35,601 nucleotides of DNA from Nitrospirota bacterium (GTDB taxonomy: Bacteria; Nitrospirota; Thermodesulfovibrionia; Thermodesulfovibrionales; Magnetobacteriaceae): positions 1 to 35,601 of the forward strand of contig JADFYL010000011.1 in assembly GCA_015233045.1 (NCBI GenBank). The letters are read 5' to 3'. Under the pieces are notes generated by a model. That model ran no database searches and had not been told where the DNA came from. It was given only the letters and a program-made list of their open reading frames with translations. Each line of letters begins with the position of its first letter. The stretch's first letter is position 1. Both the position numbers and the translations under genes were made by a program. Positions 5,869-16,309 of this stretch are shown one piece after another.

Positions 5869-7965
5869 ATGTCTATGAGACGAACTCTGCCTATGGTGGC
5901 CGCGGTAACGTTTCTCTTTTCATTAGCGCTGTTTTTGTCCGGTGGCTTTGATTATTTTGAGCTGAAGGCCTATGACATATACTGCCGGTATCTAAACCCC
6001 ACGACATCCTCTGACAATATCGTTATTGTAAAGATTGACCAGCAAAGCCTTGACGCCGAGAGCCAGCAAGCGGTCAAATGGCCGTGGCCGCGAGGGCTGT
6101 ATGCCCCGATGATTGAGTATATGTCTGAGGCGGACGCGGTGTTTATTGATATACTATTCACCGAGCCGTCCTTCTACGGCGTGGACGACGACAAGCAATT
6201 CGCCGACGCCGTAAAGAAGGCCGACAATGTCTATATTGCCCTGTTTCTCTCCTCAGAGCCGGCAAGGCAGGTATCCGAGGCCGGGGAGGCATTTATCAGC
6301 CGCATCGCCCTCAGGGATAATGCCACAGTTTTTAAGACTTTTAACTCCGCGGTGCTGCCGATAGAGGAACTGATAGCAGCGGCAAAAGGCGCCGGAAACG
6401 TCACGATTTCCCCGGACAAGGACGGCAATTACAGAAAAATCCCCATGTTTTTTCAGCTTAGTGGGCGTACCATGCCGTATTTTTCGCTTGCATATCTGAT
6501 AGACAAAAAACTCGTGGCCATTGCTGGTGGCCGTCTCATTGTAAAGGGTATCGAGGTCCCCGGAGTTAACCCGTTGGTGAGATATTCCACAAAAAAAGAA
6601 CCCTATACCGCCATCCCCGCCATAGATGTGTTGCAATCCGCCTATGCCGTGAGCCAATCTGAAGGCCCTAAAATAAACAAGGACTTCTTCAAAGGCAAGA
6701 CCGTCTTCATGGGAATGACCGCGGCGGGACTTTATGACTTAAAGCCCACGCCGATTTCATCCATCTCTACGGGGATACATATCCATGCGGCCGCCTTTGA
6801 TAATCTCATAAACGGCGGTTTTATCAAACATCCCGGAAAGATATATGTGATTGTCCCCATGTTTTTTCTCTCTCTCTTTGCCGTTTTCTGTGTGCTGAGG
6901 CGCCATTCGCTCTTAAACAATATCGGGGCGCTTGCCGCGTCTGTTGCCGCGGTTATTGCCGTCACGGCTGTTTTATTCAGAAATTCGATATATATTGACG
7001 TCATCCCTCTGTTGACTGCCGATGTAATGAGTTTCATCGCCGCACTGGCGTACAGTTATGCCTCTGAGGGAAAGCAGCGGCTATTTCTTAAGACGGTTTT
7101 TTCGCAGTACATGGACAAGAAGATTGCCGATCACATATTGAAGAATCCCGAGCTGCTGAGGCCGGGCGGCACCACTATGAATGTTGTCGTGTTCTTTGCC
7201 GACATCGCCGGATTTACGACAATCTCCGAGATGCAGACCGCCCAGGAGACGGCCATCATGCTTCATGGCGTGATGAGTGAACTCACAGAGGTAATCATCG
7301 GCTATGGCGGCGTGGTTGATAAATATATTGGCGACTGTATAATGGCGTTTTGGGGCGCACCGGTAGTCTCCGAAGAGGATGAGTTAAACTCCTGCCGCGC
7401 GTCCGTAAACTGCCTCAGGGCGTTGGATAAGGTCAACAGAGAATTTAAAGGTAAGGGATTCCCCAATATATCCCTGCGCATAGGGATGCACAAAGGCGAC
7501 GTAATCGCTGGAAATATGGGCAGCAACAGGCTCTATAATTTTACCGTCATAGGTGACACCGTAAATCTCGCCTCAAGGCTTGAATCGGTAAACAAGTATT
7601 TTAAGACTAAAATAATAGTAAGCGAAGAGATACTCAGCGGCACAAACGATATATTTCTAAGCCGCGAGCTTGCCCTCATAGAGGTTAAGGGCAAGAGCAT
7701 ACCGACGAAGATATTTGAGATAATGGGTTTTATCGCCGACCTTGACGACGATAAAAAAATCCTTGCCGGGAGATATACAGACGCGATGCGCCTGTTCAAA
7801 GAGGGAAAGTGGCAGGAATCGGCAGACACATTAGAGGAGCTGCTGACACTGTACCCAACAGACGGGCCGTCCGGTGTACTATTAAAGAGGGTAAAAAATC
7901 TTTTGGCGGCAGAGTCCCCCCCCTTGACAAATGATTGGATAGTTGTTAAAATGACGGAGAAATGA
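5869..7965 (+). CDS. CHASE2-domain class III adenylate cyclase
   Basis: The protein has 698 residues: one N-terminal membrane helix (about 8-24), an extracytoplasmic CHASE2 sensor domain (about 30-320, with IVIVKIDQQS and AVFIDILFTE), three closely spaced membrane helices (about 322-400), a short linker (LKTVFSQYMDKKIADHIL) and a class III cyclase domain. Two metal aspartates lie in FFADIAGFT and YIGDCIMAFWG. The base-recognition pair reads Lys (VVDKYIGD) and Thr (FTVIGDTVN). A Lys/Thr pair is the class IIIb adenylate cyclase pattern, so cAMP is the likely product. The transition-state Arg is in NLASRLES. The start has no clear Shine-Dalgarno; ATG 5875 is an alternative. Its last four bases overlap the next gene (ATGA), implying co-translation. 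The CHASE2 ligand is unknown. Confidence 0.9.
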   Translation: MSMRRTLPMVAAVTFLFSLALFLSGGFDYFELKAYDIYCRYLNPTTSSDNIVIVKIDQQSLDAESQQAVKWPWPRGLYAPMIEYMSEADAVFIDILFTEPSFYGVDDDKQFADAVKKADNVYIALFLSSEPARQVSEAGEAFISRIALRDNATVFKTFNSAVLPIEELIAAAKGAGNVTISPDKDGNYRKIPMFFQLSGRTMPYFSLAYLIDKKLVAIAGGRLIVKGIEVPGVNPLVRYSTKKEPYTAIPAIDVLQSAYAVSQSEGPKINKDFFKGKTVFMGMTAAGLYDLKPTPISSISTGIHIHAAAFDNLINGGFIKHPGKIYVIVPMFFLSLFAVFCVLRRHSLLNNIGALAASVAAVIAVTAVLFRNSIYIDVIPLLTADVMSFIAALAYSYASEGKQRLFLKTVFSQYMDKKIADHILKNPELLRPGGTTMNVVVFFADIAGFTTISEMQTAQETAIMLHGVMSELTEVIIGYGGVVDKYIGDCIMAFWGAPVVSEEDELNSCRASVNCLRALDKVNREFKGKGFPNISLRIGMHKGDVIAGNMGSNRLYNFTVIGDTVNLASRLESVNKYFKTKIIVSEEILSGTNDIFLSRELALIEVKGKSIPTKIFEIMGFIADLDDDKKILAGRYTDAMRLFKEGKWQESADTLEELLTLYPTDGPSGVLLKRVKNLLAAESPPLTNDWIVVKMTEK

Positions 7966-13116: not shown

Positions 13117-14625
13117 TTATGATATTCCCTCTCCATTGAATGTTTTTACCATGGTACGGTTTCTTCCAGTTGACTTGGATTCATAAAGCGCTGTATCCGC
13201 ACACGTCATGAGATTTTGCGCCGATAAGCTATTGGTAGGAACACAGCAGGCAACACCCATACTTAACGTAACATATGGTTTTACCATTGAAGCAGCATGG
13301 GGGATGCATAATTTCTCGATCGACTGCCGAATACGTTCCGCTAGAAGAAATGCCATATCCGCTTCGGTGTCCGAAAGCAAAATCACAAACTCCTCACCAC
13401 CGTAGCGCGCCACAATATCCCCGGGCCGTTTACAATTCGAAGCAAGTACCTTTGCAACCTCGCGCAGGCATTCATCACCTGCCAAATGTCCATATGTGTC
13501 GTTATACCGTTTGAAATAATCCACATCGCACATGATGAGGGACAGTTTTTTTTGTTCCCTGGTCATTCGCTTCCATTCAATCTCAATATGCGTGTCAAAT
13601 GTGCGGCGGTTTGCAATTTTGGTAAGCCCGTCGGTATAAGCCATATCTTTAATCTCCTGATAATGCCTGGCGTTAATGATGGCCATGCCGCAAATATCAA
13701 CCATGCCTGAAGCAAGGCTCAGATAATATTCCAGGTATTCTGGAAATTCTAATCCATCTATTTCAAGCATTCCAAGTAACGTTCCACTTGATGAAATGGG
13801 TAGGATAAACCCTTTGTCAAGACGAATTGTATAGTTTTCAGTTGAAGAATCACCGGATTCACATGGGTTAAAAGAAACTGTCTTTGGCGCAAAAAGCATT
13901 GAAAATATCTCGGTAATCTGATGAATGACATCACTTTCGATTTGAACATTTGTGAGAGTTCGCAGGAGATCCAGGGCCATGGCATAATGAGACAGAATTT
14001 TTTGTTTCTCATCAATCGATATATGGTTCTTATTGTTGGCCTCAATTTGCCTTTGCAAAATGACATTGGTCACAAAGAGATGCAAAAAACCAAGTCCAAC
14101 AGGGACTGTTTCATTTGGTAAGCCAATAAAGTCTGAGAACTCCTGAAGATTGCGGTATGCATCTTTATCCGCCCCTGTGTCAATCAGCAAAATGCCGGTG
14201 GATGATTCTGAAAAATATTGTTGCGCTGTCGCCCTGTCAAATCCCCACAAATTGATAAACTGCCGCCAGTGGGACAGCCACCCAGGCGTTACAGTATAAA
14301 GACCTTTCTCGGCATAGTGACCCACCATGTCTGGATTGGCAAAAATGTGAAAGCATTGCCGCATACCATGAATGTGAAAAGGTTTTAATATCTCGGCATA
14401 CGTGTCCACACCGGCCAGACAATAGCTTCCGCCTAAGACATCTATGTAGTCGTACTCCATAGACCCAAGCATACTGTCTCTCAGTTCTTCCCATGCTAGT
14501 GGAGGTTGCCCGCACCTGGCGGGGAAAAACATAACCTGAACATGGGGATATTCTTCCGATATCTTAAGGCTCTCTACCTCCTGCCGGAAATGGTTGCAAC
14601 ACAGGATAACATGCTTACCTGTCAT
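13117..14625 (-). CDS. DUF1638-like sensor fused to a GGDEF diguanylate cyclase
   Basis: This 502-residue protein has no membrane segment. Residues 1 to about 195 resemble DUF1638: HVILCCNHF at the start, YDYIDVLGGSYCLAG, a Cys-containing RQCFHIF and YTVTPGWLSHW. That family is found beside corrinoid methyltransferases. Residues about 200-325 look like a degenerate GAF/PAS-type linker (ILPISSSGTLLGMLEIDG). Residues 328-495 are a GGDEF domain starting MAYTDGLTKIANRR, with active-site GGEEF at 409-413 and an intact inhibitory I-site RPGD at 400-403. It should therefore make c-di-GMP with product inhibition. It is the last gene of a tight operon, starting 2 bases after the UroD-type gene. I infer that the N-domain senses the corrinoid or methyl state of its neighbours. 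No ligand is proven. Confidence 0.85.
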   Translation of the reverse strand: MTGKHVILCCNHFRQEVESLKISEEYPHVQVMFFPARCGQPPLAWEELRDSMLGSMEYDYIDVLGGSYCLAGVDTYAEILKPFHIHGMRQCFHIFANPDMVGHYAEKGLYTVTPGWLSHWRQFINLWGFDRATAQQYFSESSTGILLIDTGADKDAYRNLQEFSDFIGLPNETVPVGLGFLHLFVTNVILQRQIEANNKNHISIDEKQKILSHYAMALDLLRTLTNVQIESDVIHQITEIFSMLFAPKTVSFNPCESGDSSTENYTIRLDKGFILPISSSGTLLGMLEIDGLEFPEYLEYYLSLASGMVDICGMAIINARHYQEIKDMAYTDGLTKIANRRTFDTHIEIEWKRMTREQKKLSLIMCDVDYFKRYNDTYGHLAGDECLREVAKVLASNCKRPGDIVARYGGEEFVILLSDTEADMAFLLAERIRQSIEKLCIPHAASMVKPYVTLSMGVACCVPTNSLSAQNLMTCADTALYESKSTGRNRTMVKTFNGEGIS

Positions 14626-14627
14626 AC

Positions 14628-15677
14628 CTATTCTTCCATAAGTATAGGATACCGACCGTATGTGTGAACAGTTTCAGACAGGGTCATAAGCACATCCTCC
14701 GGCACTTGCCACGGGATTTCGCCATGATTGTCAGACAGGATAAAACCCCCGCCGACACCTGCCTTTGCAATGGCTTCTATTACCGTAGCAGCCGTCTGCT
14801 CCATATTCCATCGCGACATTTCTATGCCGTTGAGATTTCCCAGTACGGTAATCTTCCCTCTGCATATTTTTTTAACCTCCTCAAGGTCTTCCTCTGCGCT
14901 GACCCCGATGACGGCTGTGCCGGTCTGTGCAATATCTTCGGCAACAGGTAGGCATCGCCCTGAGGCCAAGTGGGTGGCCGTCGGCCCCTTAATGCGGGAG
15001 AGCGTGTTTTTAGCTACGGGATATCCTGTTTTCAGGTAGAGTTCCCTCGGAATGATGGTTGAGGAAGATACCGGGTCAAAATAGCAGATAGCTGTTGCCC
15101 CCGCTTCCAGTTGCGCGTTTGCCCATTCGACGCAGAAATCCTGGTTGACTGCCATTAACTGTTGAAACAGCATGGGTTGCTCGTAAATCAGATCAAGGTA
15201 CGCGGGGAATCCCATCTGCATTATGGGAAGAGAAAACGGCGACATGACAACCCCAATGATAGGGACCTCGTCTCCGGCATTTTCTTTAATAATTCGAGTG
15301 GCGTTAAGCACTTTCACCAGGCAGGGGGTATCTTTCACTTGCGGCACTGTTAATCTGGTTATATCGTTATGGTTTCTGATAATAGGGGCTCCGGCATTCG
15401 GAGGTCCATCATCGATGTATAACACCTCGCCCCCCCAGGCCTCAACTTCCAATGCTGCATAAAAAAAGTTGTAAAAACAGTCGTGCCGGTATTTCTTTCG
15501 CATTGAGATCTGTCCCTTAGCCACAGATTCGGCATTTGAAAAATATTCCCGAATTGATACCCCCAGTTCCTTTGCGCCGTGCATGGTAAGCAGAAGGAAA
15601 AAAGGAACACGGTCAGCCTCGCGGTGGGAAAGCGTAGTCAGCACACGCTGTAACGAACTCATCGGTTTCTGATCCAT
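14628..15677 (-). CDS. UroD/MtaA-family corrinoid methyltransferase-like protein
   Basis: This 349-residue TIM-barrel protein belongs to the uroporphyrinogen decarboxylase superfamily, on the methyltransferase (MtaA/MtbA/CmuA) side rather than HemE: LSHREADRVPFFLLLTMHGA at the start, YIDDGPPNAGAPII, and a C-terminal GGFILSDNHGEIPWQVPED. In MtaA/MtbA an H-x-C pair plus a later Cys bind the catalytic zinc. Here the corresponding stretch reads THLASGRC, so the His is present but the Cys of H-x-C is Ala. Catalysis may be altered, or Cys in SGRC may substitute. The start at 15677 is chosen because its A is shared with the upstream TGA (TGATG), giving translational coupling. A longer frame to 15764 overlaps the corrinoid gene and is rejected. 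Substrate unknown. Confidence 0.8.
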   Translation of the reverse strand: MDQKPMSSLQRVLTTLSHREADRVPFFLLLTMHGAKELGVSIREYFSNAESVAKGQISMRKKYRHDCFYNFFYAALEVEAWGGEVLYIDDGPPNAGAPIIRNHNDITRLTVPQVKDTPCLVKVLNATRIIKENAGDEVPIIGVVMSPFSLPIMQMGFPAYLDLIYEQPMLFQQLMAVNQDFCVEWANAQLEAGATAICYFDPVSSSTIIPRELYLKTGYPVAKNTLSRIKGPTATHLASGRCLPVAEDIAQTGTAVIGVSAEEDLEEVKKICRGKITVLGNLNGIEMSRWNMEQTAATVIEAIAKAGVGGGFILSDNHGEIPWQVPEDVLMTLSETVHTYGRYPILMEE

Positions 15678-16309
15678 CACACACCACCAGCGGATATTGA
15701 TTTGATGATGTCTATCGTATCCGATGCCGTATGAGCGCCAAAATCGGCACCCACCTGTTTCCATAGATGCGGGTCAAGCCTGAACGGCGCACCGCCAACT
15801 ACTATTGTGACTTTACTCCCTTTTTTATCAAGCATATCCCTAACATCCTTCACACGTAAGGCGGAAGGAAACATTAATACGGAAAGAAGTATCACCTCGA
15901 TACCATCATCACTTATCCTTTGAACAATCTCCGCAGGGCTAACTCTTCCATAGTCCAGCAAATCAAATCCACTGGCCCGGAGTGTGGAATAGACTATTCG
16001 CTTGCCAAGGGCATGATAGTCGTTGAGGATGGCGATAGCCATTTTAGGCGATGGTTTTCTCGGAGTGTTTCCCTGCGGGAAAATGGTGTCAACCAGTTCC
16101 TCACAAATACGTCCGCTCATATAGACCTGGGAGAGCGCGTATTCTCCTTTTTCCCATCCTTTTCCGATGTTTTCAAGTGCGTTTACAACCACGGTTTCGA
16201 TAATCTGTTCAAACGTTATCTTGTTTATTGTTTCAGACAGTACCTGCCTGGCCTTTACGATATCCGTAGATAAGAGCGCTTCCTGGAACTCATACAATAC
16301 TTCTGCCAT
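15677..16309 (-). CDS. Cobalamin-binding corrinoid protein (MtaC/MtbC/MttC type)
   Basis: This 210-residue protein has the standard two-part layout: a helical cap domain at about 1-85 (ENIGKGWEKGEYALSQVYMSG) and a B12-binding Rossmann domain at about 88-210. The lower axial ligand lies in D97-Y-H99-A-L-G102, the D-x-H-x-x-G motif, and VTIVVGGAPF follows at the strand near the nucleotide loop. Such proteins shuttle methyl groups between a substrate methyltransferase and a second methyltransferase. ATG 16309 is preceded by AAAGGAGG, which fixes the start 13 codons inside the longer open frame. It leads the operon with the UroD-type and DUF1638-like/GGDEF genes. No substrate-specific methyltransferase (MtaB or MttB) is nearby, which is unusual. 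Confidence 0.9.
   Translation of the reverse strand: MAEVLYEFQEALLSTDIVKARQVLSETINKITFEQIIETVVVNALENIGKGWEKGEYALSQVYMSGRICEELVDTIFPQGNTPRKPSPKMAIAILNDYHALGKRIVYSTLRASGFDLLDYGRVSPAEIVQRISDDGIEVILLSVLMFPSALRVKDVRDMLDKKGSKVTIVVGGAPFRLDPHLWKQVGADFGAHTASDTIDIIKSISAGGV

Follow-up and report, generated by a model that had tools for sequence, protein, structure and literature searches.

The DNA analysed here (the window) is a stretch of 35,601 nucleotides from a Nitrospirota bacterium of the Magnetobacteriaceae (contig JADFYL010000011.1, assembly GCA_015233045.1). Three tandem genes on its minus strand form one operon, which runs from 16309 to 13117 and encodes, in this order, a corrinoid protein, a UroD-fold methyltransferase, and a protein in which DUF1638, GAF and GGDEF domains are joined. 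The corrinoid–UroD pair probably feeds the third protein, the enzyme of the operon that would make cyclic di-GMP (c-di-GMP). Related operons keep both proteins and exchange the signalling end, which suggests a bacterial sensor that can be reused and that detects some methylated compound. The genes of the operon, and the domains of the third protein, are as follows.

15677..16309, minus strand: gene 1, corrinoid-binding protein with a cap domain and a B12-binding domain (Pfam B12-binding, 63 bits; B12-binding_2, 44 bits)

14628..15677, minus strand: gene 2, UroD-superfamily methyltransferase (Pfam URO-D, 192 bits)

13117..14625, minus strand: gene 3, putative DUF1638–GAF–GGDEF sensor-effector protein of 502 residues (DUF1638 and GGDEF by Pfam; GAF by model and fold search)

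14050..14625, minus strand: DUF1638 domain (PF07796), residues ~1-192 (Pfam, 38 bits, cut-off 27; alignment)

13648..14016, minus strand: divergent GAF domain, residues ~204-326, of no Pfam family (alignment A1, AlphaFold2, Foldseek)

13156..13641, minus strand: GGDEF diguanylate cyclase domain, residues 329-490 (Pfam, 185 bits; motif check)

The corrinoid and UroD genes share a TGATG start-stop overlap at 15679-15675, and only two bases separate the UroD gene from the third (TAG-GT-ATG at 14630-14623). The co-translated three-gene set described in the original prediction, which was made from the letters of the window alone, is thus seen in the sequence itself. Its DxHxxG corrinoid protein was also confirmed, by the Pfam matches listed above and by the motifs DYHALG (DxHxxG), SVLM (SxL) and GGAPF (GG), all of which are present. 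The cap and B12-binding domains are the make-up of the TIGR02370-type methyltransferase cognate corrinoid proteins; judged by its score against that model (73 bits versus a cut-off of 215), the protein belongs to a distinct subfamily.

The third protein has an intact GGDEF domain, with GGEEF at residue 409, the I-site (RPGD, for RxxD) nine residues upstream and the metal-binding DVD at 367. The motif check agrees with the earlier reading on these sites, and from the intact residues the domain is predicted to be an active cyclase making c-di-GMP. Between DUF1638 and GGDEF lies a GAF domain that was overlooked in the first reading. Alignment with copies from other proteins revealed it as a single domain common to them. 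An AlphaFold2 model of it, built from a three-sequence alignment, had a predicted local distance difference test (pLDDT) score of 87.6 and a predicted template modelling (pTM) score of 0.80, and the top solved structures in a Foldseek search with this model were the GAF domains of PDE2A, PDE6 and KdpD. Profile comparison gave a probability of 96%, at a score below every Pfam GAF model. On the strength of the model, residues ~204-326 are assigned to the GAF fold. Searches of solved structures with the DUF1638, corrinoid and GAF sequences returned general relatives or nothing.

Three cysteines of the DUF1638 domain (C10, C69 and C91) are invariant in all 15 DUF1638 proteins of the alignment; C38, the fourth, exists only in the subclade of the fusions and of proteins with PilZ, a c-di-GMP receptor fold. 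A four-cysteine DUF1638 is followed by a C-terminal PilZ domain in four genomes, all from one other family (L025:7456-8403, L026:9149-10270, L027:8072-9145 and L028:8025-8978; L numbers designate loci). The domain is thus associated with c-di-GMP in two different fusions, one with GGDEF and one with PilZ. In Phaeobacter inhibens, DUF1638 mutants require methionine, and the distribution of DUF1638 tracks that of a RamA-like activase (PMC5764234; also PMC12478193). Since the split methionine synthase of Phaeobacter depends on both DUF1638 and the RamA-like protein (PMC5764234), the domain is already tied genetically to corrinoid function.

The MtaA-type barrel protein of the original prediction did not survive the comparison. 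The UroD protein scored 119 bits against TIGR01463 (MtaA/CmuA methyltransferases), about half the cut-off of 235 bits, and its counterparts in L030 and in Azoarcus scored 90 bits. In MtaA, the zinc motif HxC...C serves the activation of a thiol (coenzyme M); here both cysteines are absent, only the histidine is kept, and THxAxGRC and NHGEIP stand in their place. These replacements, as THxA[SA]GRC and NHGE[IV]P, are invariant in 10 UroD relatives, including that of Azoarcus. UroD is also the slowest-changing member of the set: the window and L024 are 64% identical in UroD, as compared with 48% in the corrinoid protein and 37% in the sensor N-terminus, and the identity to the Azoarcus UroD is still 59%. 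The UroD-superfamily proteins CdmB, OdmB, VdmB, MtvB and CmuA are themselves substrate:corrinoid methyltransferases (PMC13222342), so the UroD protein may well be the substrate methyltransferase of this operon. For the same reason, the earlier contention that the lack of a dedicated substrate methyltransferase fits signalling is no argument. In the closely related genome G328, the UroD gene (L023:1551-2600) contains one TGA and two TAA codons and lacks the CYFDP segment, by assembly error or decay.

The GAF alignment (A1) was searched against 176 genomes of the window's order, and 14 matches were found at E<=1e-20. Thirteen of these occur in a cluster with UroD, downstream of it, namely those of the window, L055 (two), L023 (two), L024, L030, L036, L056, L057, L058/G410, L059 and L060. 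In the case of the second copies in L055 and L023, one gene intervenes between UroD and the sensor, and the others follow UroD immediately; in L058/G410, the end of UroD is found just upstream of the GAF gene. The GAF domain is thus a specific marker of the corrinoid-linked sensors. All six DUF1638–GAF fusions (the window, L055, L023, L024, L060 and L127 of Azoarcus) stand directly after UroD, and the corrinoid gene is present in all five of their loci with a long enough contig. The genome search that had been proposed for the three-gene order and the fusion thus came out in favour of the prediction: the GGDEF version recurs in L055 and L023, and none of the six fusions found lies away from UroD. 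Viewed from the corrinoid protein, the result is the same. Its gene precedes UroD in every cluster whose contig reaches far enough, and in a phylum-wide search its eight nearest relatives (E<1e-65) were all in corrinoid–UroD–sensor clusters; the identities are 75-80% to L023 and L055, 48% to L024 and 46% to Azoarcus.

The output end differs among these loci. GGDEF is found in the window, L055 and L023, and a histidine kinase in L024, L030, the second sensors of L055 and L023, L056, L057, G410 and Azoarcus. The third protein of L024 is a DUF1638–GAF–histidine kinase, and those of L030, L056 and L057 are GAF–histidine kinases (the L056 protein also contains PAS domains). In L024, L030, L055 and L056, response regulators or additional kinases are encoded downstream. 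In the corrinoid, UroD and GAF trees alike, the GGDEF trio (window, L055 and L023) groups as a single clade with strong support, so that the parts have been inherited together. Because the same gene order and corrinoid–UroD overlap occur with the GGDEF fusion in L055 and L023, and other outputs occur in further genomes, the operon is far from a chance assembly. Two GAF sensors (L059:7581-8312 and L060:5853-7157) have a short cysteine-rich tail (LPICASCKxIR...FSHGxCPxC), with no Pfam match, in place of a kinase or cyclase, and L036:6030-6632 encodes a corrinoid-linked GAF domain of 200 amino acids with no output of its own; the next gene there is for a kinase that has a separate membrane sensor.

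A kinase version was recognized by a plasmid protein search on pAZKH of the betaproteobacterium Azoarcus sp. KH32C (L127). The order there is corrinoid, UroD, DUF1638–GAF–histidine kinase (30% identical to the window protein over 352 aligned columns) and then a receiver/kinase hybrid. The locus lies between formylmethanofuran (fhc)/fae genes and a pyrroloquinoline quinone (PQQ) methanol/ethanol dehydrogenase cluster, not far from carbon fixation genes; by gene content, it is inside a methylotrophy island, and this setting points to a one-carbon signal in Azoarcus. Methanol as a signal common to both organisms was considered and is unsupported, since no PQQ methanol dehydrogenase matched above the cut-off in the window's family; a methyl donor is therefore a likelier common signal than the oxidation of methanol itself.

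Beyond the eight nearest relatives, many of the more distant corrinoid matches of the phylum-wide search also adjoin signalling genes: kinases in L097, L098 and L101, PAS proteins with no kinase domain in L094 and L096, and a stand-alone DUF1638 together with kinases in L031 and L032. The coupling of corrinoid–UroD pairs to signalling thus appears, from gene neighbourhoods, to be broader than the window's clade. L100 and L103 are catabolic in appearance. L094, L096, L097 and L101 also include a RACo activase, that is, further methyl-transfer machinery beside PAS proteins or histidine kinases. A further genome of the order encodes a B12-binding protein of 368 amino acids with an extra N-terminal region, directly followed by a PAS–GGDEF protein (L099:5239-7281), possibly an independent pairing of a corrinoid with c-di-GMP; L102 has a similar B12 protein, then a PAS protein and, at a greater distance downstream, a kinase. 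A signalling-type corrinoid gene at L095:5555-7016 is broken off after about 87 residues beside IS3-like transposase genes (recognized by eye) and represents a decayed copy.

The G+C content of the operon (45-46%) is within the range of the rest of the window (38-52%), so there is no sign of recent insertion. An Rfam scan of the window found no cobalamin riboswitch or other RNA, and promoter and terminator scans gave no more sites than shuffled sequence. A defence-system reading was dropped, as PADLOC gave no match. Elsewhere in the window, a reading frame of 698 amino acids (5869-7965) resembles, by eye only, a CHASE2-type adenylate cyclase. Among the listed reading frames, no methyl acceptor enzyme (MTII) was found in the operon or in L024, L030, L055, L056 and L057, and in-trans supply is possible; nor was a RACo-type activase found in the operon, or a transporter or activase in the operon and these five relatives. 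Two RACo activases are encoded elsewhere in the window genome.

Taken together, we consider it likely, at a probability of about 0.6, that the operon encodes an enzyme-coupled cytoplasmic sensor. The UroD-fold protein would transfer a methyl group from some methylated substrate to the cobalt of the corrinoid protein, and the methylation or redox state of the corrinoid would be read, through protein contact, by DUF1638 and GAF. The attached output domain would then answer, GGDEF making c-di-GMP here and a histidine kinase acting in the relatives, and the cobalt could be reset by the RACo activases encoded elsewhere in the genome. As the set does not include a gene for a methyl acceptor enzyme, the methyl group would be information and not fuel. 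In this scheme, the donor of the methyl group, the way in which the corrinoid is read and the direction in which control runs are inferred. The core of the original prediction, a corrinoid sensor controlling c-di-GMP, is thus supported by comparative genomics (the fusion after UroD in six of six cases, and the histidine kinase versions), with the MtaA identity and the argument from a missing methyltransferase removed from it. Several observations weigh against such a sensor. The GAF kinase of L029, the sole exception among the 14 matches, is an orphan (its genome contains a linked copy as well), and the UroD gene of L023 has the internal stops described above. The DUF1638–PilZ genes adjoin ABC (ATP-binding cassette) transporter or other genes, away from corrinoid genes. 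The lack of a PQQ dehydrogenase match in the window's family means that the Azoarcus setting is not simply transferable. A two-sequence AlphaFold model covering residues 1-321, which bears on the DUF1638–GAF arrangement, had a pLDDT of 42 and was not used, and the window genome is a 2.6-Mb bin, 74% complete. Finally, DUF1638 is absent from the GAF sensors of L030, L036, L056, L057 and L059; the domain is thus not essential to the design, and GAF is the more constant reader.

The corrinoid–UroD pair might instead be a catabolic or anabolic methyltransferase, on which the third protein reports, or with which it is co-regulated, without direct contact; DUF1638 would then serve B12 reactivation and GGDEF would be an unrelated output. 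A UroD-fold protein with a corrinoid partner is the make-up of ordinary substrate methyltransferases (PMC13222342), the DUF1638 phenotype is linked to reactivation (PMC5764234), and the two RACo activases elsewhere in the genome would suit this explanation. We nevertheless regard it as unlikely, given the lack of an acceptor enzyme, transporter or activase in the operon and the five relatives named above, the constancy of signalling genes as the third partner in a dozen loci, and the single GAF family that follows the pair across phyla.

Two other explanations place the sensor in one component. Corrinoid proteins can act as sensors, as in the B12 photoreceptor CarH, and the corrinoid protein alone might respond to cobalt redox state, oxygen or light, with UroD as a loader or scaffold. 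Its match to a CarH model is weak (40 bits versus a cut-off of 400), and in place of the CarH-type signature W-x9-E-H, all ten relatives have W-x8-QVY. Moreover, UroD is the most conserved member, with active-site motifs invariant even in Azoarcus at 59% identity, which suggests that catalysis matters, and we hold this explanation to be quite improbable. Still less probable is DUF1638 as the true redox sensor, bearing a metal or iron-sulfur centre that the corrinoid system keeps or uses. The three cysteines invariant in 15 proteins, the fourth restricted to the signalling subclade, and the PilZ fusions away from corrinoid genes would be in keeping with it, whereas the five loci with GAF sensors that lack DUF1638 keep the corrinoid–UroD–GAF set.

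If the enzyme-coupled sensor is real, a one-carbon enzyme reaction would itself be the signal, reporting the flux of a methylated compound rather than binding the compound. C-di-GMP and two-component signalling would gain a further kind of input, DUF1638 would acquire a role that can be tested, and many 'UroD family' genes beside kinases, at present read as metabolism, would be accounted for. We put at about even the chances that it represents a new class of sensor input, with a full corrinoid methyl-transfer pair as detector, a dedicated GAF family reading methylation and interchangeable outputs, present in Nitrospirota and on a betaproteobacterial plasmid, and the first corrinoid-methyl input to c-di-GMP. 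No earlier description of the corrinoid–UroD–sensor arrangement was found in the open-licence literature, and a 2022 census of c-di-GMP inputs does not mention cobalamin or corrinoid (PMC8846402); our genome comparison was mostly within Nitrospirota, plus the plasmid search, and a prior description elsewhere is possible.

The nearest kin among known systems are MsmS and RdmS of Methanosarcina, which are likewise signalling proteins tied to corrinoid methyltransferases, with GAF-type sensory domains (PMC11619418, PMC11784639). They differ from the window operon in that they are archaeal and are described as heme- or thiol-based redox sensors (PMC11619418), with no stated corrinoid–UroD input, with kinase output only, and with no GGDEF or DUF1638. 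CdmBC, OdmBC, VdmBC and MtvBC each combine a UroD-fold protein with a small corrinoid protein that has the domains of the one in the window; these pairs are catabolic and work with MTII, whereas the window operon has a signalling gene in third place and no MTII. In the split methionine synthase of P. inhibens, DUF1638 is also encoded beside the B12-binding protein and is needed for its function (PMC5764234), but it is a single-domain protein of a biosynthetic enzyme and not joined, as here, to GAF and an output domain. CarH and other B12 photoreceptors share the use of a B12-binding domain in signalling; the transcription factor domain and W-x9-EH signature of CarH are missing from the window protein. 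The H-NOX- and globin-coupled diguanylate cyclases differ from the window operon in using heme as cofactor and in responding to a gas; in both, a cofactor-bearing front end, separate or fused, controls a GGDEF domain (PMC8846402), as the corrinoid protein would do here.

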